From Candidatus Treponema caballi (lineage in GTDB: Bacteria; Spirochaetota; Spirochaetia; Treponematales; Treponemataceae), in assembly GCA_018066285.1 (NCBI GenBank), contig JAGHRS010000028.1, positions 1 through 44,364 of the forward strand: 44,364 nucleotides of DNA, in the 5' to 3' direction. The translations under genes and the position numbers were made by a program. Of the stretch, positions 8,216 to 22,487 are shown in pieces (position 1 is the first letter of the stretch; the number at the start of each line of letters is the position of its first letter). The notes beneath the pieces are model-generated. The model was given only the letters and a program-made list of their open reading frames with translations. It was not told the DNA's origin and made no database searches.

Positions 8216-9100
8216 ACGAAAGGAATCATTCTCGCAGGGGGAACCTGCAGCCGTTTATTTCCTGTAACTAAGGCAATCTGCAAGCAACTGCTTCCTGTCT
8301 ATGACAAGCCGATGGTGTATTATCCGCTTAGCGTGTTGATGCTTGCAGACATTCGTGAGGTTCTTATAATCAGTACTCCTCGTGATTTGCCTGTTTTCAG
8401 GTCTTTACTCGGAGACGGCAGTGCGCTGGGGATGCATTTCGAGTTTGCTGTTCAGGAAACACCCCGCGGCCTTGCTGATGCTTTCATTGTAGGAAAAGAC
8501 TTTATCGGAACTGATGATGTCGCGCTTGTTTTAGGTGACAACGTTTTTTATGGGCAGAGTTTCACATCGTTTTTAAAAAAAGCCCGTAAAACAGTTGAAG
8601 ATAATCGTAAGAGCGTCATTTTTGGCTATAGGGTTACCGATGCATCTGCGTACGGAGTAATATCATTTGATGAAGCAGGTAATGTAGCTGGCATTGAAGA
8701 AAAACCTTCCGTTCCATCATCTGACTACGCGGTGCCAGGCCTTTATTTTTATACAAATGATGTTGTATCCATTGCTGCAGATATAAAACCAAGTGCCCGT
8801 GGGGAACTTGAAATTACTTCTGTAAACGAAGCATTTCTTGCGCAGGGCAGGCTTTCTGTCACATTACTTGGCCGTGGTATGACATGGCTTGATATGGGCA
8901 CCTATGATGGACTGCTTGAGGCCTCAAACTTTATTGCAACAATCCAGAAGAGACAGGGGCTTTTTGTGGCCTGTATTGAGGAAATTGCATACCGGAATGG
9001 CTGGATATCAAAGGATATGATTCTTGAGATTTCGAAAGAATACAATACAGAGTATGGACGCTATCTGAATATGATTGCATTGGATAGAATATCAGACTGA
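8216..9100 (+). CDS. rfbA: Glucose-1-phosphate thymidylyltransferase with apparent ACG start
   Basis: First enzyme of dTDP-L-rhamnose synthesis (glucose-1-phosphate + dTTP to dTDP-glucose). The first in-frame ATG (8312) would remove the whole nucleotide-binding loop. Reading further upstream, the frame encodes xKGIILAGGTCSRLFPVTKA and KQLLPVYDKPM, exactly where RfbA proteins start MKGIILAGG. The codon at the methionine position is ACG (8216-8218), immediately after the wzz-like stop TAA. From there the protein has 294 residues, the normal family length. The loop reads GGTCSR instead of the usual GGSGTR. GGCGGGA lies just upstream as a possible ribosome-binding site. Other motifs (LVLGDNVFYG, DYAVPGLYFYTNDV, LGRGMTWLDMGT) are intact. 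Confidence 0.85.
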   Translation, partial: TKGIILAGGTCSRLFPVTKAICKQLLPVYDKPMVYYPLSVLMLADIREVLIISTPRDLPVFRSLLGDGSALGMHFEFAVQETPRGLADAFIVGKDFIGTDDVALVLGDNVFYGQSFTSFLKKARKTVEDNRKSVIFGYRVTDASAYGVISFDEAGNVAGIEEKPSVPSSDYAVPGLYFYTNDVVSIAADIKPSARGELEITSVNEAFLAQGRLSVTLLGRGMTWLDMGTYDGLLEASNFIATIQKRQGLFVACIEEIAYRNGWISKDMILEISKEYNTEYGRYLNMIALDRISD

Positions 9101-9131
9101 AGTTGTCAGAGCATCTCAATGAGGATTAACC

Positions 9132-9713
9132 ATGTCATTTGCGTTTAAGAAATGTGATATAGAAGGACTGTACGAAGTGTATCCTGAGATACATGCTGAT
9201 TCACGGGGTTTTTTTTCGGAAATCTATAACGAACGTGTTTTTCTGAAAGCAGGTCTTTCCATGAAGTTTGTACAGGATAATGTGAGCTTTTCTTCACGTG
9301 GTGTACTACGCGGTCTTCATTATCAGACAATGCATCCGCAGGGGAAACTTGTGTATACGCTTTCAGGACGTGTGTTCGATGTTGCTGTTGATCTCAGAAA
9401 AGGAAGTTCATCATTTGGCCGCTGGCATGGCGTAATACTTGATGCTGAAAAAAAGAACATGCTCTATATACCTGAAGGTTTTGCGCACGGATTTCTTGTT
9501 TTAAGCGAAACTGCTTTGTTTGCCTACAAGTGTACTGATTTTTATGATCCGGAAGGTGAGGGGGGCATACTCTGGAATGATCCGACAATCGCGGTACATT
9601 GGCCTTTACCTTCAGAAACAGATCCGATCCTGAGTAAGAAGGATATGAAGCTCCCTCTTTTCGGTACAGAAAAAGACTATTTTCCTATTGATGGCATATG
9701 GATGGGAAAGTAA
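9132..9713 (+). CDS. rfbC: dTDP-4-dehydrorhamnose 3,5-epimerase
   Basis: 193-residue cupin-type epimerase. Signature segments are DSRGFFSEIYNE, FVQDNVSFSSRGVLRGLHYQ (contains the catalytic His), GKLVYTLSGRVFDVAVDLR and YIPEGFAHGFLVLSE. Length is normal for the family. It converts dTDP-4-keto-6-deoxyglucose to the L-lyxo form in dTDP-rhamnose synthesis. It lies 31 bases after rfbA and 3 bases before rfbD, in the same operon. Confidence 0.93.
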   Translation: MSFAFKKCDIEGLYEVYPEIHADSRGFFSEIYNERVFLKAGLSMKFVQDNVSFSSRGVLRGLHYQTMHPQGKLVYTLSGRVFDVAVDLRKGSSSFGRWHGVILDAEKKNMLYIPEGFAHGFLVLSETALFAYKCTDFYDPEGEGGILWNDPTIAVHWPLPSETDPILSKKDMKLPLFGTEKDYFPIDGIWMGK

Positions 9714-9716
9714 CAC

Positions 9717-10586
9717 ATGATCTGGCTCATCGGCTGTAATGGAAATCTGGGAAGCGAGATAGCGTGGCTATTAAAAAGGGACGGAATACCGTTTTGTGGC
9801 ACGGACAGCAGTGTAGATATTACTGAATATGAAACTTTGAAAGCGTATACCGCTGATAAGTCTTTAGAGTGGATTGTCAACTGTGCTGCATATACTGATG
9901 TAGATAAAGCTGAAGATGATCGTGAACGTGCGTTTTCTGTAAATGAAACCGGCGCCCGGAACTGTGCGCTTATTGCTCGTGAATTTGGTGCAAGACTCAT
10001 CCATATCTCAACAGATTATGTTTTTGATGGAAATACAGCAGTTCCTCTTTCAGAAGATGCACCGGTTAATCCGCTTTCTGTATATGGAAAATCAAAAGAA
10101 GCTGGCGAACAGGCTGTACGCGAAGTTCTTGACGACTATTATATAATCCGGACTTCGTGGCTTTATGGCAGAGGGGGACAGAATTTCGTCAATACAATGC
10201 TTCGTGTATTGAAAGAACGTCCTTTAGTGAAAGTTGTGTGCAATCAGAAAGGAACTCCGGCCTGGGCTCGTGATATAGCGTCTGTCATTTTTCAGATTAT
10301 TGAAAAAGATGATGTTCCGTTCGGAACATACAACTGTTCAAACAGTGGTGAAACAACCTGGTATGATTTTGCATGTACCATCAGCGAGGAAGCCGGAAAA
10401 AAAGGACTTCTTCCTCTTTCTTGTGCAGTACTTGAGGCGTGTACGTCTGAAGAATATGCCGCGAGAGCAAAGCGACCTGCTTATTCCGTACTTTCTAAAG
10501 AAAAAATCTGTCGGACACTTGAAATCAGCATGCCTGACTGGAAAGATAGTTTGATTTGTTATCTGGAGAGTTTATGCGACGACTAA
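9717..10586 (+). CDS. rfbD: dTDP-4-dehydrorhamnose reductase
   Basis: 289-residue short-chain dehydrogenase that makes dTDP-L-rhamnose in the last pathway step. It has an N-terminal Rossmann motif (IGCNGNLGSEI), NCAAYTDVDKAE, ISTDYVFDG, and the catalytic YGKSK (YxxxK) followed by EAGE. RTSWLYG is also typical. The ATG follows the rfbC stop within 3 bases. Its 3' end overlaps the start of rfbB. Confidence 0.93.
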   Translation: MIWLIGCNGNLGSEIAWLLKRDGIPFCGTDSSVDITEYETLKAYTADKSLEWIVNCAAYTDVDKAEDDRERAFSVNETGARNCALIAREFGARLIHISTDYVFDGNTAVPLSEDAPVNPLSVYGKSKEAGEQAVREVLDDYYIIRTSWLYGRGGQNFVNTMLRVLKERPLVKVVCNQKGTPAWARDIASVIFQIIEKDDVPFGTYNCSNSGETTWYDFACTISEEAGKKGLLPLSCAVLEACTSEEYAARAKRPAYSVLSKEKICRTLEISMPDWKDSLICYLESLCDD

Positions 10587-11650
10587 CAAACATTCTTGTG
10601 ACCGGAGGAGCTGGCTTTATTGGAAGCAACTTCATCCGTTATCTCTTTGAAAAAGAAGGTTTTTCTGGAACTGTAGTAAATGCAGACTGTCTGACATATG
10701 CAGGCAAGGAAGAAAACCTGGCTGATGTTGAAGCTCAATTCGGAAAAACTGTCGTCGATTCAGGAGCGACACAACGGTATTTCTTTGAAAAAGCAGATAT
10801 TTGTAACCGTGACCGTATGGAACGGATTTTCCGTCAATATGACATAGATACTGTCATTCATTTTGCCGCTGAGAGCCACGTAGACCGGTCTATATGTGGT
10901 CCGGAAGCGTTTATAAGGACAAATGTCATGGGAACACAGACATTGCTTGATACGGCCCGTTTTTACTGGTTGCGCAAGGATGGCGTATTGCGTGATGATG
11001 TGTTGTTTCATCAGATTTCAACGGATGAAGTCTATGGTTCCCTCGGTATTGATGGAAGTTTTACTGAAGAAAGCCCATATGAGCCGCGAAGTCCGTATGC
11101 AGCAAGCAAGGCTGCAGCAGACCACCTTGTAATGGCGTATCACTATACGTATGGTTTACCGGTTACTATTTCTCATTGTTCAAATAATTATGGTCCCTGT
11201 CAGTTTCCTGAAAAGTTCCTGCCGCTTGTAATCAGCAATATCCGGGATGGGAAAGAACTTCCTGTATATGGAGATGGGAGAAATATCCGTGACTGGATTT
11301 ATGTTGATGATCATATTCGTGCCGTGTGGCTTATCGTGAATAAGGGAAAAACAGGCGGCCGCTACAACATCAGCGGTGAAAACGAATGGCGGAATATTGA
11401 TCTGCTTCATAAGGTAATAGAGTTGACTGCCGCTGAATGCGGCCTTAATCCTCTCGATGTTGAAAAGACAATCCGTTTTGTGTCTGACCGTCCCGGCCAT
11501 GACAGAAGATATGCACTCGACTGCTCAAAATTGAAGGATGAACTTGGCTGGAAGCAGACGGTCAACTTTGAGGAAGGGCTGCGACGGACGGTCAGTTGGT
11601 ATGTGGGAAAAGATAAATATCAAAGCGTCTTTTCCTTTTCCATCAGGTAA
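10574..11650 (+). CDS. rfbB: dTDP-glucose 4,6-dehydratase
   Basis: 358-residue NAD-dependent dehydratase for the second step of dTDP-rhamnose synthesis. It has TGGAGFIGSNF near the N-terminus, FAAESHVDRS, STDEVYG, the catalytic YAASK, and NNYGPCQFPEK. The ATG at 10574 is chosen because GGAGAG ends 3 bases before it and the protein then begins MRRLTNILVTGG. It overlaps rfbD by 13 bases, indicating translational coupling. The last 31 bases overlap the 3' end of the convergent TagF-like gene, so the C-terminal residues SVFSFSIR are encoded opposite that gene. This completes the A-C-D-B set of rhamnose genes. Confidence 0.94.
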   Translation: MRRLTNILVTGGAGFIGSNFIRYLFEKEGFSGTVVNADCLTYAGKEENLADVEAQFGKTVVDSGATQRYFFEKADICNRDRMERIFRQYDIDTVIHFAAESHVDRSICGPEAFIRTNVMGTQTLLDTARFYWLRKDGVLRDDVLFHQISTDEVYGSLGIDGSFTEESPYEPRSPYAASKAAADHLVMAYHYTYGLPVTISHCSNNYGPCQFPEKFLPLVISNIRDGKELPVYGDGRNIRDWIYVDDHIRAVWLIVNKGKTGGRYNISGENEWRNIDLLHKVIELTAAECGLNPLDVEKTIRFVSDRPGHDRRYALDCSKLKDELGWKQTVNFEEGLRRTVSWYVGKDKYQSVFSFSIR

Positions 11651-12837
11651 TCAACAACAGCTGCGGCGCTGTTTCCCTGATTAGCCCAGCATTCATTGCG
11701 GACTTTCTGTCTGCCTTCCTGAAGATTTTTGCTTTTGAGAGCGTTTTCAATGACATCCCCAATGTGGTTGAAATCAGCTTCTTTAAGCTGAATGCCAAGT
11801 TCTGGCAGAACGCGGAATGCCCAGATTGGCTCAGAAAGCCAGTCTGCGTCATATGGGAGCGTGTCAAAATCTGTGTCTGCATAAATGAGAGGCTTGTCAA
11901 ATACGCATGAGTAATCAAAAATGATGCCTGAGAAATCGGTAATCAGCAGATCGGCTCTGTTAAGGACTGCAAAATTATCGTTATCATAGTTCCATTCAAA
12001 ATCAGGGAATTTCTGGGTAAGAGGTTCAAGAATATCCTTTTCAGAAACAATTGTCTGCGGATGGGGTCTGACAATAATCTTGTATCCTGTCTTCTGCAAG
12101 GCTGTCAGGAACTTTTCTCCGTATTTGGAAAGAATAGCACTTTTTCCCCAACTTGGGCCCAGAAGGATGACGGGTTTATCATTACAGATGCGGTCGTTCG
12201 CATCATATTTTACCTTAAGATTATCAAGAGGCAGAGAACCGACGGTTACCAGTTCTTTTGCTGTAATAGCGGGTCGTAATGATTCAATCTTCCTGATCAG
12301 GTCATTCTGGTTTGTTCCGGATGTTAGGACGGCATCATAATAATCCAGACCGAACATTCTGTATCCTGCAAGATCATCAACCGTATGCGGAATGTGTACA
12401 TACCATTTTACATTCTTGCTCCGTTTCCACTGATATACATCAAGATTTGGAGTGGTTGCCATAAGAATGTCTGCAGAAAGCATGTTCAGTTTTGCGAATG
12501 CTTTGTTTCCTTCTCCAATATACTCAGCAGTCAGATGCTTGTATTCTGCCGTCAGGGCAGGATCATCAGGGCTGCAGGTGTAATAGACAAGATCAACTGC
12601 ACGTTTTTCAAATTCATCACAGATTGGCTTGAAAACATTCCAGTATCGTTTGTGGTCGCTGAATATGACATACGGAATATTGTTAAAAGCGGCATTCTTA
12701 TCTGTTTTTCCACCGGAAAGAATGAACTGTAATTTGATGAAAAGAGCTCTGAGTCCAAAAATGGCGGCGGTGGCTATTCCAATGAAGAGTGACAGAAGCA
12801 TTGAGCCTGTGCCCGGATCTATATACAGTGGTAACAT
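11620..12837 (-). CDS. TagF/TagB-like CDP-glycerol (polyol-phosphate) transferase
   Basis: 405-residue protein of the CDP-glycerol glycerophosphotransferase family, which polymerises or primes teichoic-acid-type glycerol- or ribitol-phosphate chains. The N-terminus (YIDPGTGSMLLSLFIGIATA) is a membrane anchor. The catalytic domain shows HIPHT near residue 148, RPHPQT near residue 257 (the two conserved histidine sites) and ADLLITDFSGIIFDY near residue 295, the family's CDP-binding signature. It is 11 bases behind the YidC-sulfatase fusion gene and has AAGGAG before its ATG, so the two form an operon. Teichoic-type polymers are unusual in spirochaetes, although teichoic-like lipopolymers have been described from oral treponemes. 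The actual donor and acceptor are unknown. Confidence 0.85.
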   Translation of the reverse strand: MLPLYIDPGTGSMLLSLFIGIATAAIFGLRALFIKLQFILSGGKTDKNAAFNNIPYVIFSDHKRYWNVFKPICDEFEKRAVDLVYYTCSPDDPALTAEYKHLTAEYIGEGNKAFAKLNMLSADILMATTPNLDVYQWKRSKNVKWYVHIPHTVDDLAGYRMFGLDYYDAVLTSGTNQNDLIRKIESLRPAITAKELVTVGSLPLDNLKVKYDANDRICNDKPVILLGPSWGKSAILSKYGEKFLTALQKTGYKIIVRPHPQTIVSEKDILEPLTQKFPDFEWNYDNDNFAVLNRADLLITDFSGIIFDYSCVFDKPLIYADTDFDTLPYDADWLSEPIWAFRVLPELGIQLKEADFNHIGDVIENALKSKNLQEGRQKVRNECWANQGNSAAAVVDYLMEKEKTL

Positions 12838-12848
12838 TCTTTTTCTCC

Positions 12849-15494
12849 TTAGTTGTTCTGCTTTTTCCAGTCTGACATGCGGACCCAGTTATCCTTGTCG
12901 AATATATCGTCCGAAACATGCCATGCCCGTTCATCATCGAGTGTGAACTGGTAGTCATCCCTATAGTTCTGTACGCAGTTCCAGTCAAGACACTCGTAAA
13001 TATTCACGCCGTTAGCTTTGTTCTGAACAAGTGTTTTTCCGGTAAATGGATTTATATCTGATACATCTAATCCTTCTTTTGCAAGGAACAGCGTATCTGC
13101 ATTTGTCATGAAGGTTTCATCAGTCTGAACCGGGCCTGATGCATTAAAGTCCTTTACAAGAAGCAGTGCACCGAACCAGGCGCAGTTTAGGTCTCCGCGT
13201 GGAATGTCAATGTTTCTGCCATGATCAGATACAACTATGATTCTTGTATTGTCATAAACACCGTTTTCTTTCAGGTAATCAAACCAGAGACCGACTTGTT
13301 TCAGCGCTGCAACGTTTGCATCATAGTGTTGCTGTGTAATGTTGTCAGATTGGATTTTAGCAGGAGCGTCATATTCTTCATTAAGCAGAACATGGACGTC
13401 ATGAGGTGTCTGGTTCTCAAAGAATGTGAATGTGTTCTTATCTGATGTAAAATCTGTCATATTTCTCAGATAATACAGGTTTGCAAATGTTGAGAAGAAA
13501 GTTGTTGCAGTTGAGAAAACATCGGTTCTTTTGGCTGATTTATAGAATGTCTGGCGTAGGAATGGCGGCAGGCATTGAAGGACTGAAAAATCAATGCATC
13601 CTGTCTGACAATGTACATCCATATTCTCTTCTGCAAAACCTTTTTCAACACGGTAGTTGGTAAAATACTTATCTTCAATTTCTTTTGCTGTTATTTCCGG
13701 ATATGGTTCAAAGAAACTCAAATCACCGCGTGTTGTGTAATTTGGCCAGGGTGGGTCAAGAATGGTGGTTTCAAAACCCGCATCAGAAAAGAGTTTTGGC
13801 ATGACAAGAAGTGCTTCGTCATGCTTATCACGCAGCATTTCATCTGATCTTGAATTGATTTCTTCTTCCGTATATTCATAACCGCCATACATCGGGGGTG
13901 TTCCCATAACAGTGAAGTTTGAGTAACTGAGTGTATTCGGATAGTAAGTGAATCCATCGAACTGCTGTTCAATTTCTGGAAACTGCTTGAAAATTTCAGG
14001 CGCAAATGTATTGATTGCTCTGTCCAGGAAAAGAATTACGACATTCTGTCCTGTTTTTGAAAGTGTGAATTCCTTATCAATAGTAAGATTTGTCTGAGGC
14101 TTGCTTTCTACATTCTTATATGCTTCGAATGATGTTTTTATGGTATTTGCCTTCATTATGCCAAGACCTGTTTCGGCAATACAGATTGCCATAAGTAAGC
14201 CTGGTACATATTTCTGGATTTTCGTCTGTCTGAGGTATAAAAAAAGAAAAGCTATGGCAAGACCGATGAAACATGATATCAGGAGCATTTTCTTGCCTGT
14301 TTTAAGAACATTCGGATCATCCAGTTCAAACAGTACATTCAGATTTCCGTAATTTGACTTCAGAATGTACGTGTTGATCAGGGCAAGAATGAACAGCAGG
14401 GGAAGAATGAAACTTTCCCATTTTTTGACATTTTCACTGAACAGTTTGTATATGACAAATGGCCAGACGACGAAGAATCCAAGGAAAATGAGTGTTGCCG
14501 TGTAGATATACGTCAGTGGGGAATCGGTGTTTCCGAGGAATGAGAACTCTTCCGGACTTGTCGCAATGGCACTTGAGGGAAGCAGGAAACCGCAGAGAAG
14601 GGCAATGCCGAGTCCGCTCAGAAGAACCGTGAGGAAGTCTGTCTTTTTGTCATGCTGCAACTGAAGCAGACGTATCTTTGAAATATACTTTCCATATGCA
14701 GGATATGCAGCAATACATATGGAGAAAACAAGAAGGATAAGTTTCTTGGTTGTAATTTTATTTCTGAGAAGATACAGGCTTGCTCCTGTCAAAAGGACAC
14801 TGACAAGTACATGAAGAATTTTACCAGGATGCTTCATCTTCATGACTATGTTCTTTGCAAGGCTGAAGAGGTTGTTGAGTATCCAGTAGATGACAAGTCC
14901 GCTCGGAGAAGTATACAGAAGCACCAGGAACAGGATTGCTACGATATACAACTGCACTTTTTCGCGTAACGGAGCTTCTTTTGTATAGATTGCTCCTGAT
15001 ACGAAGTTTATCAGCGTCATGATGATCGGGAGCACATGGATGGGGAATGAACCAATGTGAAGAAGTCCGTCTGGAGAGCCAAGGTCCTTGAAAATCCAGA
15101 AAGAAGAGCCGCGAAGTGCTTCGCAGTTGCTCAGATAATGATACGCAGCAATAAAAAACGGAATTTCAATAAGGATTGAAAGGGAACTTCTGAGCACATA
15201 CAGCGGATGATAGTCATTCTGTCTGTAGTAGGTGGAAAGCATCATGAACTGTTCGTTTCCCTTGAAGGCTTTCTTGATGCGTTTTACACGCGGTTCCAAA
15301 GCTTTTGCAGCTTTTCTTTCCTTTTCCTGAAGCGCATCTGCAATATTATACAGAGGGAGCGCGAGGAAGTTTATGATGAGACTGACACCGCATACAGCGC
15401 CAATAATTCCCAGTTTTGAAAACTTGGTTGAAATAAAGCAGAACACCCAGTCAACTATTGTTTCTATAGGTGTAATCAGAAGATTATACAACAT
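12849..15494 (-). CDS. YidC/Oxa1-like domain fused to LtaS/sulfatase-like domain
   Basis: Large multi-spanning protein, 881 residues from the ATG at 15494. Residues about 1-220 resemble the YidC/Oxa1 insertase core: ITPIETIVDWVFCF, NFLALPLYNIADALQEKERK, and SPSGLVIYWILNNLFS, the family hallmark. About seven further membrane segments follow (to about residue 450). Residues about 483-810 form an alkaline-phosphatase-superfamily domain with NVVILFLDRAINTF at the usual nucleophile strand, FTYYPNTLSYSNF, GTPPMYGGYEYT, and the metal-site IIVVSDHGRN. In LtaS the first motif ends in a catalytic Thr; here it is LDRA. Longer starts (ATG 15560, TTG 15581) exist in frame; 15494 is preferred because YidC-like proteins begin near MLYNLLITPIE. 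It is followed by the TagF-like gene. Confidence 0.82.
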   Translation of the reverse strand: MLYNLLITPIETIVDWVFCFISTKFSKLGIIGAVCGVSLIINFLALPLYNIADALQEKERKAAKALEPRVKRIKKAFKGNEQFMMLSTYYRQNDYHPLYVLRSSLSILIEIPFFIAAYHYLSNCEALRGSSFWIFKDLGSPDGLLHIGSFPIHVLPIIMTLINFVSGAIYTKEAPLREKVQLYIVAILFLVLLYTSPSGLVIYWILNNLFSLAKNIVMKMKHPGKILHVLVSVLLTGASLYLLRNKITTKKLILLVFSICIAAYPAYGKYISKIRLLQLQHDKKTDFLTVLLSGLGIALLCGFLLPSSAIATSPEEFSFLGNTDSPLTYIYTATLIFLGFFVVWPFVIYKLFSENVKKWESFILPLLFILALINTYILKSNYGNLNVLFELDDPNVLKTGKKMLLISCFIGLAIAFLFLYLRQTKIQKYVPGLLMAICIAETGLGIMKANTIKTSFEAYKNVESKPQTNLTIDKEFTLSKTGQNVVILFLDRAINTFAPEIFKQFPEIEQQFDGFTYYPNTLSYSNFTVMGTPPMYGGYEYTEEEINSRSDEMLRDKHDEALLVMPKLFSDAGFETTILDPPWPNYTTRGDLSFFEPYPEITAKEIEDKYFTNYRVEKGFAEENMDVHCQTGCIDFSVLQCLPPFLRQTFYKSAKRTDVFSTATTFFSTFANLYYLRNMTDFTSDKNTFTFFENQTPHDVHVLLNEEYDAPAKIQSDNITQQHYDANVAALKQVGLWFDYLKENGVYDNTRIIVVSDHGRNIDIPRGDLNCAWFGALLLVKDFNASGPVQTDETFMTNADTLFLAKEGLDVSDINPFTGKTLVQNKANGVNIYECLDWNCVQNYRDDYQFTLDDERAWHVSDDIFDKDNWVRMSDWKKQNN

Positions 15495-15574
15495 GATGAC
15501 AGTGTACTTTTCTTCTATAGGCAAGTCAACTGCAGTATTTATAAGGAGTTGGGTGTTCATAAAAATGAAGACGG

Positions 15575-15603
15575 TTGTCAAAAAGTGAACAAGACTGTAT
15601 ACT
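15575..15603 (+). promoter_or_regulatory. sigma-70-type promoter of licCA1
   Basis: TTGTCA (15575-15580) and TATACT (15598-15603) are separated by exactly 17 bases. The predicted transcript start near 15610 leaves a short leader with AAGAAGG before the ATG at 15629. This argues against the longer TTG start at 15575, which lies inside the -35 element. Confidence 0.7.
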
Positions 15604-15628
15604 GTCTTTCATTAAGAAGGTACATCAT

Positions 15629-17413
15629 ATGCTGTCAAAAAATGTTTTTGATCTTCTCTTTTATTTTTATCAGAACAAATCTGCTGACATTACCCAGCGC
15701 AGACTGTCTGAAGTTTTTGAGTGTTCACTTGGAAAAGTAAACAAGATTGTTCAGGAAGCTGAAGAAACAAAACTTCTTTCAGTTGATTCTGAAGGAAGAT
15801 ATGCGCTGACGCAGGCTGGTCTTACTGCTCTTGAACCGTACAAGGTAAGAAACGCAGTTATTATGGCTGCCGGCATGTCAAGCCGTTTTGCTCCGCTGTC
15901 TTATGAAAAGCCGAAAGGTCTTCTCAAAGTAAAGGGTGAAATCCTTATTGAACGCGAAATCCGCCAGCTTCAGGAAGCAGGCATAACGGATATTACGCTT
16001 GTCGTAGGCTATATGAAGGAAAAGTTCTTCTACCTGCAGGATAAGTTCAATGTCAAAATCGTGGTAAACGAGGACTATTACCGTTACAACAATACATCAA
16101 CGCTTATCCGTGTACTTGATAAGCTTTCAAATACGTACATCTGTTCAAGTGACAATTACTTTGTTGATAATGTTTTTGAACCGTATGTATATCAGTCTTA
16201 TTATTCAGCAGTGTATGCAGCGGGAAAGACGGATGAATACTGCCTTTCCTGTGACACTAACGGCCGCATAAAGAATGTCACTATTGGTGGTGAAAACTCC
16301 TGGTACATGCTGGGACACGTATATTTTGACAAATCCTTCAGCGATGCATTCTGCCCGATTCTGAAAAAGGAGTATGAAAATCAGGAGACAAAGGATCATC
16401 TGTGGGAAAACCTTTACATGCGCTATATCAAGCAGCTTTCTCTGTTCATCAGGAAATATGATGCAGACAAGGTTCTTGAGTTTGACTCTCTTGATGAACT
16501 CCGCGCTTTCGATTCTGAGTACATCAATAATGCTGATTCACACATCCTCAAGAATATCTGCAAAGTCCTCAACTGCGAAATAAAGGATATCGTCAACATC
16601 AAGGCAATTAAGGCAGGCCTGACAAATACATCATTCCAGTTCAGCCTGAATGGCGTGAACTATGTTTACAGACATCCTGGCGTTGGAACTGAAAAATACA
16701 TCAACCGTGAAGGCGAGGATTTCTCAATGAAGGTAGCTTCAGAACTCGGCCTTGATAAGACATTCGTCCATATGGATGGGAAAGAAGGCTGGAAGATTTC
16801 ACGGTTTGTTGAAAACGCACGTGAGCTTGATTATCACAAGCCGAAGGAAGTGACCGAAGCCCTTAAGATGATGCGCGCGCTGCATGATTCGGGAAAGGTT
16901 TCTCCGTTTGACTTTGATGTCTGGGTGAAGACAGAGGAATTCCTGGACCGTCTTGAAGGAACTGGAAAGAAAGACACGGAAGATTTCATTCCGCTTCTTG
17001 ATACCATGAAAAAGGTGCATGAACTTGTTACGACAGATGCGTACGCAAAGAAGTGCCTGTGTCATTGTGACTGCTATTCACCGAACTTCCTGCTTGATGA
17101 TGCAGACAAAATGTATCTTATTGACTGGGAATACTCCGGTAATGATGATCCTGCCAGTGACCTCGGAACATTCATCTGCTGTTCTGATTACGGCTTTGAT
17201 GAAGCTCTTGATATCATTACGGAATACCTTGGCAGAAAGCCTGAAGGAAAGGAATTGGGCCACTATTTCGGATATGTTGCGGAAGCTTCATATTACTGGT
17301 ATGTATGGGCACTGTATCAGGAGACACGTGGCAATTTCATGGGAAACTGGCTGTACATGTGGTACAGCAACGCAAAACTGTATTCAAAGAAAACCATAGA
17401 ACAATACTCATAA
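15629..17413 (+). CDS. licCA: LicC-LicA fusion: cytidylyltransferase + choline kinase with N-terminal winged helix
   Basis: 594-residue three-part protein. Residues 1-70 look like a winged helix-turn-helix (TQRRLSEVFECSLGKVNKIV). Residues about 75-300 form a LicC-type nucleotidyltransferase (AVIMAAGMSSRF, then KPKGLLKVKGEILIE, with the metal Asp in SDNYF, D175). Residues about 310-590 form a LicA-type choline kinase (GLTNTSF, HCDCYSPN with D481 and N486, and LIDWEYSG with D499). It would phosphorylate choline and convert it to CDP-choline. A LicCA fusion is known to act in phosphatidylcholine synthesis in Treponema denticola. The start ATG follows AAGAAGG. It is the first gene of an operon with a small membrane protein and an NCS1 permease, divergent from the YidC-sulfatase gene. 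Confidence 0.9.
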   Translation: MLSKNVFDLLFYFYQNKSADITQRRLSEVFECSLGKVNKIVQEAEETKLLSVDSEGRYALTQAGLTALEPYKVRNAVIMAAGMSSRFAPLSYEKPKGLLKVKGEILIEREIRQLQEAGITDITLVVGYMKEKFFYLQDKFNVKIVVNEDYYRYNNTSTLIRVLDKLSNTYICSSDNYFVDNVFEPYVYQSYYSAVYAAGKTDEYCLSCDTNGRIKNVTIGGENSWYMLGHVYFDKSFSDAFCPILKKEYENQETKDHLWENLYMRYIKQLSLFIRKYDADKVLEFDSLDELRAFDSEYINNADSHILKNICKVLNCEIKDIVNIKAIKAGLTNTSFQFSLNGVNYVYRHPGVGTEKYINREGEDFSMKVASELGLDKTFVHMDGKEGWKISRFVENARELDYHKPKEVTEALKMMRALHDSGKVSPFDFDVWVKTEEFLDRLEGTGKKDTEDFIPLLDTMKKVHELVTTDAYAKKCLCHCDCYSPNFLLDDADKMYLIDWEYSGNDDPASDLGTFICCSDYGFDEALDIITEYLGRKPEGKELGHYFGYVAEASYYWYVWALYQETRGNFMGNWLYMWYSNAKLYSKKTIEQYS

Positions 17414-19185: not shown

Positions 19186-20976
19186 ATGAATAAGAAAATA
19201 AAGAAGTTCATGAACAAGCGCGAATGCGATATCCTGAAATATCTTGATGAGAACTCTTTTGTAAATCAACGGACTGTTGCTGAGAAGACAGGCTGTGCTG
19301 TAGGCATGGTGAATCAGACTCTTAAACTTCTTGAAGACTGCGATTTGATAAATGCAGATAAGACTCTGACAGAAAAGGGAAGAGAGACTGTCAGGAGGAC
19401 TTCCCCAAAACGTGCCATCATTCTTGCTGCGGGCTTTGGTATGCGCATGGTTCCCATCAATATGTCAGTTCCAAAGGCGTTACTGGAAGTTCGCGGAGAA
19501 ACGATAATAGAGCGCATCATTAAACAGCTGCATGAAGCCGGGATTACAGAAATCTACGTTGTCGCCGGGTTCATGATGGAACGGTTTGAGTATCTGATTG
19601 ATGAATATGGTGTTGAAATAATTGTAAACAGTGAATATGCACTGAAAAACAACCTTCATTCATTATATCTGGCACGGGATTATCTTGAAAATGCGTATGT
19701 CATCCCATGTAATGTGTGGACAGATTTCAATCCGTATTCAAAAAATGAAATGTATTCCTGGTACATGATTGATGACAAACTGGGAACTCATGGATACTTC
19801 TGGGTGAACAGAAAACAGGAAGTCATGAAGCTTCCTGATATAGTTCCTGGATTTCATAAAATCGGCATAAGTTACATTGGTCCTGATGAAGCTCCTCTTG
19901 TCCGTGAAAGACTGGAAAAATATGATTCGTATCCATCATATGACACCAGGAGCTGGGATGAAATTCTTTTTGAACAGAAATCGGTTACTGTGTATGCGCG
20001 GAAGATCAGTAATGATGATTTCGCCGTAATAAATACCTATGAACAGCTTAGGGAACTTGATTCCGGGTCAAATCATCTTAAGACGGAAGCAATTACGATT
20101 GCAGCAGAAACCCTTGATGCATCTCCTTCTGAAATTACTGACATAGAAATACTGAAAAAAGGCATGACAAACCGTTCGTTTCTGTTTTCATGCAGGGATA
20201 AGCGCTACATCATGCGCATCCCGGGAGAGGGAACGGACCAGCTGGTAAACAGAAGGGAAGAAGCTGCTGTTTACCGTGTTCTGAAGGGTAAGGGTATCTG
20301 TGACAACATCATCTACATAAACCCTGATAATGGCTATAAGATAACGGAGTATATCGAGAATTCGCATGCCTCTAATCCTATGAACGTTCTTGATGTTCAT
20401 GACTGTATGAAACGGCTGCGTGAATTCCATAATCTCAGGCTGAAGGTGGATCATACTTTCGAAATATTCGGGAAGATAAACTTCTACGAATCGTTGTGGG
20501 ATGGAAAGCCTTCTGTGTACCGTGATTACAGCCAGACAAAAGAGAATGTCTTTTCTCTTAAGCCATACATTGATGAACATGCAAAAGCGTATGCATTGAC
20601 TCATGTTGATGCTGTTCCTGATAATTTTCTTTTCTCAAATGAGAACCTGAAAAAGCAGATTCACATAATCGACTGGGAGTACGCTGGTATGCAGGATCAG
20701 GATGTAGACCTTGCCATGTTCTGCATATATGCGATGTACGACCGTAAGCACGTGGATAAGCTTATAGACGCATATTATACCGAAGGATGTCTTGAGGAAA
20801 CACGCGTGAAGATTTACTGCTACATAGCCTGCTGTGGCCTTTTGTGGAGCAACTGGTGTGAATATAAGCGCAACCTTGGTGTTGATTTCGGTGAGTACGC
20901 ACTGCGTCAGTACCGTTATGCAAAGGAATATTACCGGATTGTTATGAATTATCTTGAAGAAGGAGAAATAAAATGA
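19186..20976 (+). CDS. second, diverged LicC-LicA-like fusion with N-terminal winged helix
   Basis: 596-residue paralogue of the licCA1 product with the same three-part order. A winged helix region (residues about 10-75, RTVAEKTGCAVGMVNQTLKL) is followed by a nucleotidyltransferase (AIILAAGFGMRM, VPKALLEVRGETIIE) and a LicA-type kinase (GMTNRSF, HVDAVPDN from H473, IIDWEYAGMQD). The position of the metal Asp in SDNY of licCA1 reads CNVW here (N176), so the cytidylyltransferase half may differ in activity or substrate. The start is uncertain: ATG 19186 fits a leaderless transcript, while ATG 19210 aligns with the licCA1 start. It overlaps the BCCT gene by 4 bases. An amino alcohol kinase/cytidylyltransferase is likely; choline is not proven. 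Confidence 0.82.
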   Translation: MNKKIKKFMNKRECDILKYLDENSFVNQRTVAEKTGCAVGMVNQTLKLLEDCDLINADKTLTEKGRETVRRTSPKRAIILAAGFGMRMVPINMSVPKALLEVRGETIIERIIKQLHEAGITEIYVVAGFMMERFEYLIDEYGVEIIVNSEYALKNNLHSLYLARDYLENAYVIPCNVWTDFNPYSKNEMYSWYMIDDKLGTHGYFWVNRKQEVMKLPDIVPGFHKIGISYIGPDEAPLVRERLEKYDSYPSYDTRSWDEILFEQKSVTVYARKISNDDFAVINTYEQLRELDSGSNHLKTEAITIAAETLDASPSEITDIEILKKGMTNRSFLFSCRDKRYIMRIPGEGTDQLVNRREEAAVYRVLKGKGICDNIIYINPDNGYKITEYIENSHASNPMNVLDVHDCMKRLREFHNLRLKVDHTFEIFGKINFYESLWDGKPSVYRDYSQTKENVFSLKPYIDEHAKAYALTHVDAVPDNFLFSNENLKKQIHIIDWEYAGMQDQDVDLAMFCIYAMYDRKHVDKLIDAYYTEGCLEETRVKIYCYIACCGLLWSNWCEYKRNLGVDFGEYALRQYRYAKEYYRIVMNYLEEGEIK

Positions 20977-22487
20977 GTTCTGAAAAAAGAAGAATTGACC
21001 CGGCTACTACCATAATCCCAATGGCGATTATTCTGGTGATGTGCGTGTTCTTTTTTGTCAGCCCTGAGGCTTCTGCAAATACTTTGGGCGCAATACGCGG
21101 TTTTCTTGAAGGAAAACTTGGCCTGTATTATCTTCTGGTTGGTCTGGGTGTCCTTATCACCGGCCTTATCATCGCTTTTTCAAAGCTTGGAGACATCGTC
21201 CTTGGAAAGCCGGATGAAAAGCCTCAGTACAGTTTCTTTACCTGGGGTTCCATGATGTTTACTGCGGGACTTGCTGCAGACATCCTGTTCTATTCGTTCT
21301 GCGAGTGGATTCTGTATGCCGGTGAAAGCCGCGTTTCTTCGCTCGGTTCCATTCAGGACTGGGCCTCAACATATCCGCTTTTCCACTGGGGCCCGATTCC
21401 GTGGGGCTTTTATGCAATCCTCGCTGCTGCATTCGGTTTCATGCTGCATGTTCGTGGTGTAAAGAAGCAGAAGTATTCAGAAGCCTGCCGCCCGATTCTT
21501 GGAAAGTATACGGATAAGCTTCCTGGAAAGATTGTAGACGTTCTTGCTGTCATCGCACTTATTGCAGGAACAGCAACAACGTTCAGCCTTGCAACTCCGC
21601 TTCTGTCATCTGCACTGACTGACCTGTTCGGCATTCCGTCTTCAAAAATCGTCACCATCCTCATTCTTGTCGTCATCTGCGCTGTGTACACCGTATCTGT
21701 CCTTCGCGGTATGAAAGGCGTCAAGTTCCTTGCTGAAATCTGCATGTACGTGTTCTTCGCGCTCCTTGCCTATGTCTTCATCCTGGGAAAGAATCCGATT
21801 TATATCCTTGAAACGGGATTCAGCGCGCTTGGCAACCTGTTCCAGAACTTCCTGGGACTTGCCACGTACACCGATCCGCTTCGTGAAACCGGATTTGCAC
21901 AGAACTGGACTATATTCTACTGGGCTTACTGGATGGTCTGGTGTGTTGCAGCTCCGTTCTTTATGGGAAGCATTTCACGCGGCCGCACTGTCCGTCAGGT
22001 AATCCTCGGCTGTTTCGGCTTCGGTATGGGCGCTACGTTCATCTCATTCATCATTCTTGGAAACTACAGCCTTGGCCTTCAGACAAAGGGCATTTTTGAC
22101 GTCATGGGCTTCTATGAAGCATCAGGATACGACCTTTATGCCACAATCATTGAAGTTATCCACTGCCTGCCTGTTCCTCAGATTGTGCTTGTCCTGCTCA
22201 TTGTTTCCATGGTTGCATTTTACGCTACAAGTTTTGACTCAATCACACTGGTTGCATCAGCATACAGTTACAAGGAAATAAAGGATGATGAGGAAGCGGG
22301 TAAAGGCATGAAGCTTTTCTGGGCAATTCTTCTGATTCTGCTGCCGGTTGTGTTCATTTTCAGTGAAAGCAGCATGAACAACCTGCAGACAGTTTCCATG
22401 ATTGCCGCATTCCCGATTGGTATCGTCATCATTCTGATTATTGCGTCATTCATCAAGGATATGAAGAAGTACCGGGACGGAGAGTAA
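20973..22487 (+). CDS. BCCT-family choline/betaine/carnitine-type transporter
   Basis: 504-residue protein with about 12 membrane segments and the clear BCCT signature: SFFTWGSMMFTAGLAADIL, PLFHWGPIPWGFY, WTIFYWAYWMVWCVAAPFF followed by MGSISRGRTVRQ, and FYATSFDSITLVASAYSYK. BCCT proteins import quaternary ammonium compounds, by Na+ or H+ symport or by exchange. The start ATG overlaps the stop of licCA2 and is preceded by GAAGAAGGAGAAA. It is thus directly coupled to an amino-alcohol kinase, which points to nutrient uptake for phospholipid or decoration rather than osmoprotection. The tail after the last segment is short (KDMKKYRDGE), without a long osmosensory extension. Confidence 0.92.
   Translation: MSSEKRRIDPATTIIPMAIILVMCVFFFVSPEASANTLGAIRGFLEGKLGLYYLLVGLGVLITGLIIAFSKLGDIVLGKPDEKPQYSFFTWGSMMFTAGLAADILFYSFCEWILYAGESRVSSLGSIQDWASTYPLFHWGPIPWGFYAILAAAFGFMLHVRGVKKQKYSEACRPILGKYTDKLPGKIVDVLAVIALIAGTATTFSLATPLLSSALTDLFGIPSSKIVTILILVVICAVYTVSVLRGMKGVKFLAEICMYVFFALLAYVFILGKNPIYILETGFSALGNLFQNFLGLATYTDPLRETGFAQNWTIFYWAYWMVWCVAAPFFMGSISRGRTVRQVILGCFGFGMGATFISFIILGNYSLGLQTKGIFDVMGFYEASGYDLYATIIEVIHCLPVPQIVLVLLIVSMVAFYATSFDSITLVASAYSYKEIKDDEEAGKGMKLFWAILLILLPVVFIFSESSMNNLQTVSMIAAFPIGIVIILIIASFIKDMKKYRDGE

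Follow-up and report, generated by a model that had tools for sequence, protein, structure and literature searches.

The genome of Candidatus Treponema caballi contains a gene in which a YidC/Oxa1-type domain is joined in one reading frame to a domain of the alkaline-phosphatase superfamily, and which is followed by the gene of a TagF-like transferase. The fusion is real and beyond chance, and it is co-inherited with one TagF-like enzyme across the spirochaetes and in some gut Firmicutes. The two gene products probably load, flip, and attach groups that contain phosphate (phosphocholine or aminoethylphosphonate, for example) to sugars of the cell surface; we know of no YidC relative that does this. 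The component parts belong to known superfamilies; their combination, and the loss of a basic groove residue from the YidC-like part, were not found described in the open-access literature. Searches of that literature turned up no account of a YidC relative joined to a phosphotransferase, whether by fusion or by gene linkage, and nothing on this system in connection with YidC and teichoic acid or phosphocholine transport. The window analysed here is the whole stretch of 44,364 nucleotides from contig JAGHRS010000028.1, and its features are listed in Table 1.

Table 1. Features of the window around the fusion gene.
Feature	Position	Strand	Basis
TagF-like transferase, 405 aa, N-terminal membrane segment YIDPGTGS	11620..12837	-	PF04464; profile and model match Cps3D, TarL and TagF structures
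Fusion gene, 881 aa: YidC-like domain, extra membrane helices, alkaline-phosphatase-superfamily domain	12849..15494	-	Open frame, homologue start, 81 fusions elsewhere
YidC/Oxa1-type domain, residues 1-232	14799..15494	-	60KD_IMP 84-89 bits; profile against YidC structures, E 4e-15
About 7 further membrane helices, residues 233-478	14061..14798	-	Helices of predicted model, hydrophobic segments
Alkaline-phosphatase-superfamily domain, residues 479-881	12852..14060	-	Fold matches, Z ~20; LtaS, sulfatase, phosphonate monoester hydrolase by profile
Asn42 codon, position of the basic groove residue (R366 of E. coli YidC)	15369..15371	-	YidC profile alignment
Asp491 (LDRA), probable metal ligand	14022..14024	-	Invariant; weakly aligned to LtaS Glu
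Thr528, probable nucleophile	13911..13913	-	Invariant in 81 fusions; N-terminus of helix 528-541
Asp757-His758 (SDHGRN), metal site	13221..13226	-	Invariant; aligned to LtaS Asp-His
LicC-LicA-type fusion (nucleotidyltransferase and choline kinase), divergent from the fusion gene	15575..17413	+	Pfam, NCBIfam
Second LicC-LicA-type fusion, N-terminal winged helix	19168..20976	+	Pfam
BCCT-family (betaine/carnitine/choline) transporter	20973..22487	+	Pfam, 420.9 bits

The fusion gene and its architecture

The fusion gene is a single open frame from the ATG at position 15494, free of internal stops. A TTG start would extend the frame to 15581 (minus strand, 12849-15581); alignments with homologues begin at the ATG, so the length of 881 aa and the coordinates first given for the gene are right. 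The preliminary description, made from the sequence alone, had placed YidC and phosphatase domains in this one frame, and the claim is upheld by profiles, by the predicted fold, and by the 81 fusions of more than 820 aa that were gathered from other genomes. In full-length relatives the frame runs from one domain into the other without a stop or frameshift. The exceptions to an intact fusion are broken extra copies in some arrays and clean separate genes in two genomes.

The predicted structure of the protein has a mean pLDDT of 90 and a pTM of 0.82. Known YidCs have the C-terminus of their core in the cytoplasm, and an odd number of helices beyond such a core would place the phosphatase-like domain outside the membrane.

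The YidC-like domain and its altered groove

The Pfam family 60KD_IMP, with its cut-off of 35, matches residues ~34-219 at 84.3 bits in the protein search and at 89.2 bits when the genome is searched; TIGR03592 scores 88 bits on the fusion against a cut-off of 84.3. Profiles do find YidC within residues 1-220, and the hallmark SPSGLVIYWILNN on which the family was first recognized is confirmed in the fusion. A profile of 29 YidC-like domains also reaches the YidC structures of E. coli and B. halodurans (E 4e-15 to 1e-13). Because matches to the phosphatase domain filled a fold search made with the complete model, the assignment of the YidC part comes from sequence. An ordinary YidC is encoded separately, on another contig of the same genome (187.7 bits).

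Judged by its residues, the YidC-like part of the fusion does not look like an ordinary insertase. The position of R366 is occupied by Asn, Thr or Ser in all of the fusions that cover it (56 in one set, 80 in a larger set), and likewise in both unfused YidC-like relatives, whereas all 20 housekeeping YidCs compared from the same order are basic there (13 Lys, 7 Arg). Further positions split the fusion from housekeeping YidC, among them Y49 versus T/S, A117 versus M, M159 versus Y, and N163 versus Q. The fusion thus shares with bacterial YidC of the Oxa1/Alb3 superfamily the 60KD_IMP domain, the SPSGL..YW motif and the profile match to YidC structures, but differs in its groove, in having a phosphotransferase fused or gene-linked to it, and in being a second copy beside a normal YidC.

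The phosphatase-like domain

Residues ~480-881 of the model match alkaline-phosphatase-superfamily chains with Z ~20, including sulfatases, phosphonate monoester hydrolases and LtaP/LtaS, and by fold or profile the likeness extends to LtaS, EptA, MCR-1 and PbgA. The profile reaches LtaS at E 1.3e-6, with sulfatases and phosphonate monoester hydrolases scoring alike. Pfam Sulfatase gives 18.4 bits on the window protein (cut-off 25) and 27-44 bits in five relatives. The NCBIfam search found no match of the curated LtaS model on the window protein.

The residues D491, T528, His698, D757, H758, Lys781 and Asp800 are invariant in the 81 fusions. The reading of SDHGRN as a metal site has held: the segment DNTRIIVVSDHG aligns with DNSVIIMYGDH of LtaS, and the Asp-His alignment is sound. 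A second reading, that the catalytic Thr is absent with LDRA in its place, was mistaken. LDRA is the probable metal-ligand site, its Asp491 standing opposite the Glu of LtaS (NVIYIHLES) in a weak alignment segment, while Thr528, within SNFTVMGTPPMYGG at the start of a predicted helix, is present in 81 of 81 fusions. From its conservation and predicted helix position, Thr528 is likely to be the nucleophile. With this and the other residues invariant, the chemistry need not differ from that of other threonine-type members of the superfamily, as had been thought possible for want of the Thr.

The domain shares with the LtaS, EptA/MCR-1 and PbgA group the same fold, the Thr, His and Asp-His residues, and the arrangement of membrane helices followed by a domain that would be extracytoplasmic. 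It differs from them in having Asp rather than Glu at the first metal-ligand position, in the score of the window protein under the Sulfatase cut-off, and in the YidC-like N-terminus. Two simpler assignments were rejected. Sulfatases have a Cys or Ser at the nucleophile position, which is converted to formylglycine; the invariant Thr at that position and the sub-threshold Pfam score speak against a plain sulfatase. A strict LtaS orthologue was rejected on the Asp for Glu replacement and on the spread of the best sequence matches over sulfatases, phosphonate monoester hydrolases and LtaS.

The TagF-like partner

The TagF-like gene begins 11 bases downstream of the fusion gene, as first described, and its product matches PF04464 with 48.3 bits (cut-off 22.1). 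Characterised PF04464 enzymes work at the cytoplasmic side and use CDP-alcohols as donors. The protein has a GT-B-like model with TagF as its nearest structure, a likeness to the CDP-alcohol phosphotransferases TagF, TarL and Cps3D. Unlike these, it belongs to a subfamily of its own, with an invariant N-terminal DPGTGS segment, invariant HxxH and RPHPQ motifs and a near-invariant SDFSG, and it occurs with a YidC-like module. The curated TarF/TagF model scores 19.3 bits against 550, below membership, so the partner is neither TarF nor TagF by that model.

Co-occurrence and gene order

Across 296 genomes from the phylum, the YidC-like module is found with the TagF-like subfamily in 64 and without it in 3, the TagF-like gene is found by itself in 1, and neither is found in 228; the TagF-like gene was scored by its subfamily profile, and two split genomes were counted via their separate YidC-like gene. 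Because the genomes are related, the Fisher p of 4e-60 is not a true probability. The four discordant genomes (G245, G255, G258 and G299) have completeness of 66-91%, and one has 7% contamination. Each of the two genes is present in 20 of 138 genera. When PF04464 and the fusion were scored in 99 relatives, 38 had both, 4 and 4 had one apart from the other, and 53 had neither. The pairing seen in the window thus recurs very strongly elsewhere.

The partner is the immediate same-strand neighbour of at least 52 of 75 distinct fusions, tandem fusions being taken as one block; this is a lower bound, as open reading frame picking can pass over a TagF-like gene, as it did that of L054. A partner that is not adjacent sits elsewhere in the genome, as in Brachyspira-like genomes. 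That the latter lack the partner was considered and rejected, since all 11 that were tested carry a TagF-like gene, which in several of them lies kilobases off or at another locus. Often a single TagF-like gene accompanies several fusions, with four at L041 and three at L083. In the class of one Clostridia locus, the fusion was present in 12 of 391 sampled genomes.

The two split genomes (G265 and G182) have the YidC-like part as a standalone gene (286 and 238 aa), then the TagF-like gene, then a phosphatase-like protein of 594-607 aa with Thr, His and Asp-His at matching positions; one of these two proteins passes the Sulfatase cut-off. At locus L094 the order on one strand is PEP mutase, phosphonopyruvate decarboxylase-like, PntC-AEPT, YidC-like, TagF-like, phosphatase-like. 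This three-gene form shows what the fusion joins.

Neighbouring genes and head groups

Which head group might such a system handle? Judging by what they are predicted to encode, the neighbouring genes point to cytidylyl-activated groups: CDP-choline in the window, and CMP-aminoethylphosphonate elsewhere, including T. denticola. Choline-kinase-type genes also lie beside the pair at L017/L089 and L102. PEP mutase or PntC/AEPT genes are near it at L003, L023, L027, L077, L082, L083, L086, L093, L094 and L100, and nucleotidyltransferase-aminotransferase I/II fusions at L043, L046, L051, L052 and L081. A PEP mutase lies within 40 kb of the pair in 12 of 16 genomes with an above-cut-off PEP mutase, a sample that is not unbiased because several of the 16 were picked after the linkage had been seen. 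A genome-wide profile search found no PEP mutase in the genome of the window. A recognised head-group gene is present at 10 of the 28 loci whose flanks extend for 4 kb or more in each direction; at the other 18 none was recognised.

In T. denticola (G051), about 27 kb of one strand carries Ppm-Ppd-PntC/AEPT, an ABC-2 transporter, glycosyltransferases, the TagF-like gene and the fusion, and the PntC matches PDB 6pd1 over residues 1 to 616. T. denticola PntC makes CMP-AEP; the later phosphonate-tailoring steps were left open and called enigmatic (PMC6697681). The fusion's loci thus have the same activation genes nearby as Lic/Pnt tailoring with phosphocholine or aminoethylphosphonate, but the later transferase there is LicD-like (PMC6697681), whereas here the TagF-like gene and the fusion would carry out the later steps. 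Since the recurring neighbours make CDP-choline or CMP-aminoethylphosphonate, the teichoic-type chemistry proposed at first is not supported in its specifically glycerol-phosphate form.

Two assignments of neighbouring genes were rejected. Not all of the ~600-aa nucleotidyltransferase fusions near the pair are LicC-LicA, several being PntC-AEPT or nucleotidyltransferase-aminotransferase. Two Brachyspira-like proteins considered as PntC-like are a nucleotidyltransferase-choline kinase or resemble one.

In the window the first LicC-LicA-type gene is divergently transcribed, and is thus a neighbour rather than an operon member. Both LicC-LicA-type proteins are N-terminally extended, the second extension matching the winged-helix family HTH_24, which suggests a regulatory or self-regulating form. 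On the other side, consecutive dTDP-rhamnose-like genes (RmlA, C, D, B; 8312-11650) converge on the TagF-like gene; the last of these (10556-11650) was the one checked against Pfam.

A possible tailoring system and its alternatives

The fusion and the TagF-like gene may make up a system of three components by which surface glycans are decorated with small head groups, phosphoryl or phosphonyl, a reading that we favour tentatively and give somewhat less than an even chance. On the cytoplasmic face, the TagF-like enzyme would load a membrane lipid with a head group taken from a donor activated with CDP or CMP; this donor would be CDP-choline in the present genome and CMP-aminoethylphosphonate in other species. 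The YidC-like domain, without its basic groove residue, would move the charged lipid to the outer leaflet. There, going by its fold and invariant residues, the extracytoplasmic domain would take the head group onto Thr528 and pass it to a glycan acceptor. With the TagF-like enzyme in the cytoplasm and the phosphatase-like domain outside, the substrate would have to cross the membrane in between, and a sequence of charging, flipping and transfer is in keeping with the finding that E. coli YidC scrambles lipids in vitro (PMC10491306).

The three-component reading draws on the co-occurrence and adjacency of the two genes, on the split loci in which YidC-like, TagF-like and phosphatase-like genes stand side by side, on the head-group activation genes beside the pair, including the characterised PntC in the T. 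denticola cluster, and on the presence of one TagF-like charger with several fusions. Among such tandem copies the YidC-like domain is the best-conserved part and the phosphatase parts diverge (mean identity between copies within one locus: YidC part 63%, middle 33%, phosphatase part 45%). The TagF-like protein also covaries closest with the YidC part (r 0.89; partial 0.61 versus 0.26 for the phosphatase part), a contrast that may stem from unequal domain rates and to that extent counts against the reading. Also counting against it are the 18 well-flanked loci without a recognised head-group gene, the fusions that lie away from their partner gene, and the divergent LicC-LicA gene, which may equally serve phosphatidylcholine synthesis, a use of LicC-LicA known from T. 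denticola. The original suggestion, of a YidC-like part acting on behalf of a lipid-linked substrate or a partner, is supported as an idea; the joint role of the proteins is one that we infer.

Does the YidC-like part carry the charged lipid itself? Or, is the donor an ordinary phospholipid (phosphatidylglycerol, phosphatidylethanolamine or phosphatidylcholine) used by an LtaS- or EptA-like phosphotransferase, with the YidC-like part only equilibrating lipids, donor outward or diacylglycerol back, and the TagF-like enzyme acting separately on a cytoplasmic glycan precursor? The fold and catalytic residues shared with LtaS, EptA, MCR-1 and PbgA would fit, as would the scrambling of common phospholipids by ordinary YidC in vitro (PMC10491306). 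We consider this unlikely, as it alone leaves unexplained both the near-obligate tie to one TagF-like subfamily and the closer covariation of that protein with the YidC part. Strict co-occurrence, this covariation, and the invariant N-terminal segment of the TagF-like protein would be accommodated if the YidC-like domain were a scaffold or private insertase for it, binding the YIDPGTGS segment and linking the cytoplasmic enzyme to the outer one while itself transporting no lipid. This is improbable, because several fusions per partner and partners at other loci fit a fixed complex less well, and because the basic groove residue would be expected to stay in a domain that inserts proteins. An ordinary second YidC, fused by happenstance and inserting the membrane proteins of a surface-glycan locus, would account for the clear family match, but is very improbable given the strict tie to one enzyme subfamily and the loss, in all covering fusions and both unfused relatives, of a groove residue that housekeeping YidC keeps. 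A frameshift, assembly artefact or chance fusion, of which the broken copies in some arrays (L039/L040) might be taken as a sign, has a negligible probability, being ruled out by full-length fusions in dozens of genomes, single-contig ones included, with invariant residues in both halves.

The logic proposed for the three-component reading, with lipid charging inside, flipping, and transfer outside, resembles that of three-component extracytoplasmic glycosylation (Gtr type; pentofuranose, PMC11127046). None of the three component families is held in common (0/3): in place of a polyprenyl-phosphate-sugar synthase, a GtrA/SMR or MATE flippase and a GT-C transferase, the parts here are PF04464, YidC/Oxa1 and alkaline-phosphatase, and the cargo would be a phospho-headgroup rather than a sugar. 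It is possible, if doubtful, that a branch of YidC/Oxa1 left protein insertion to become the flippase of a new three-component class, in which lipid-bound phosphocholine, aminoethylphosphonate or a related head group would pass from a TagF-like charger to an extracytoplasmic phosphotransferase; such systems would supply missing late steps of tailoring with phosphonates and phosphocholine in spirochaetes. If true, the Oxa1 superfamily would gain a natural role in moving lipid-linked cargo, its lipid movement having so far been seen with reconstituted proteins and in simulations (PMC10491306), and candidate enzymes would be named for the phosphonate-tailoring steps that were enigmatic when PntC was described (PMC6697681).

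Variant loci

Several loci depart from the arrangement in the window. L039 (6052-19580) and L040, both of genome G057, hold a fusion array in which some members are split into YidC-like and phosphatase-like frames, together with two TagF-like genes. In Lachnospiraceae, relatives consisting of the phosphatase domain only (551-572 aa) have PEP mutase or decarboxylase genes close by (L075, 6412-12579; L076, 7316-8971), with an ABC transporter gene among these neighbours at L075. In Clostridiales (L015 and L018), the fusion adjoins two YfhO-family genes and a conserved protein of ~611 aa without a Pfam match. The fusions at L005, L007 and L044 are of the window type and have a DltA/ACP/MBOAT-like set and a PLP-dependent decarboxylase after them, hinting at further acyl or aminoacyl decoration; the short L006 has the MBOAT gene only.
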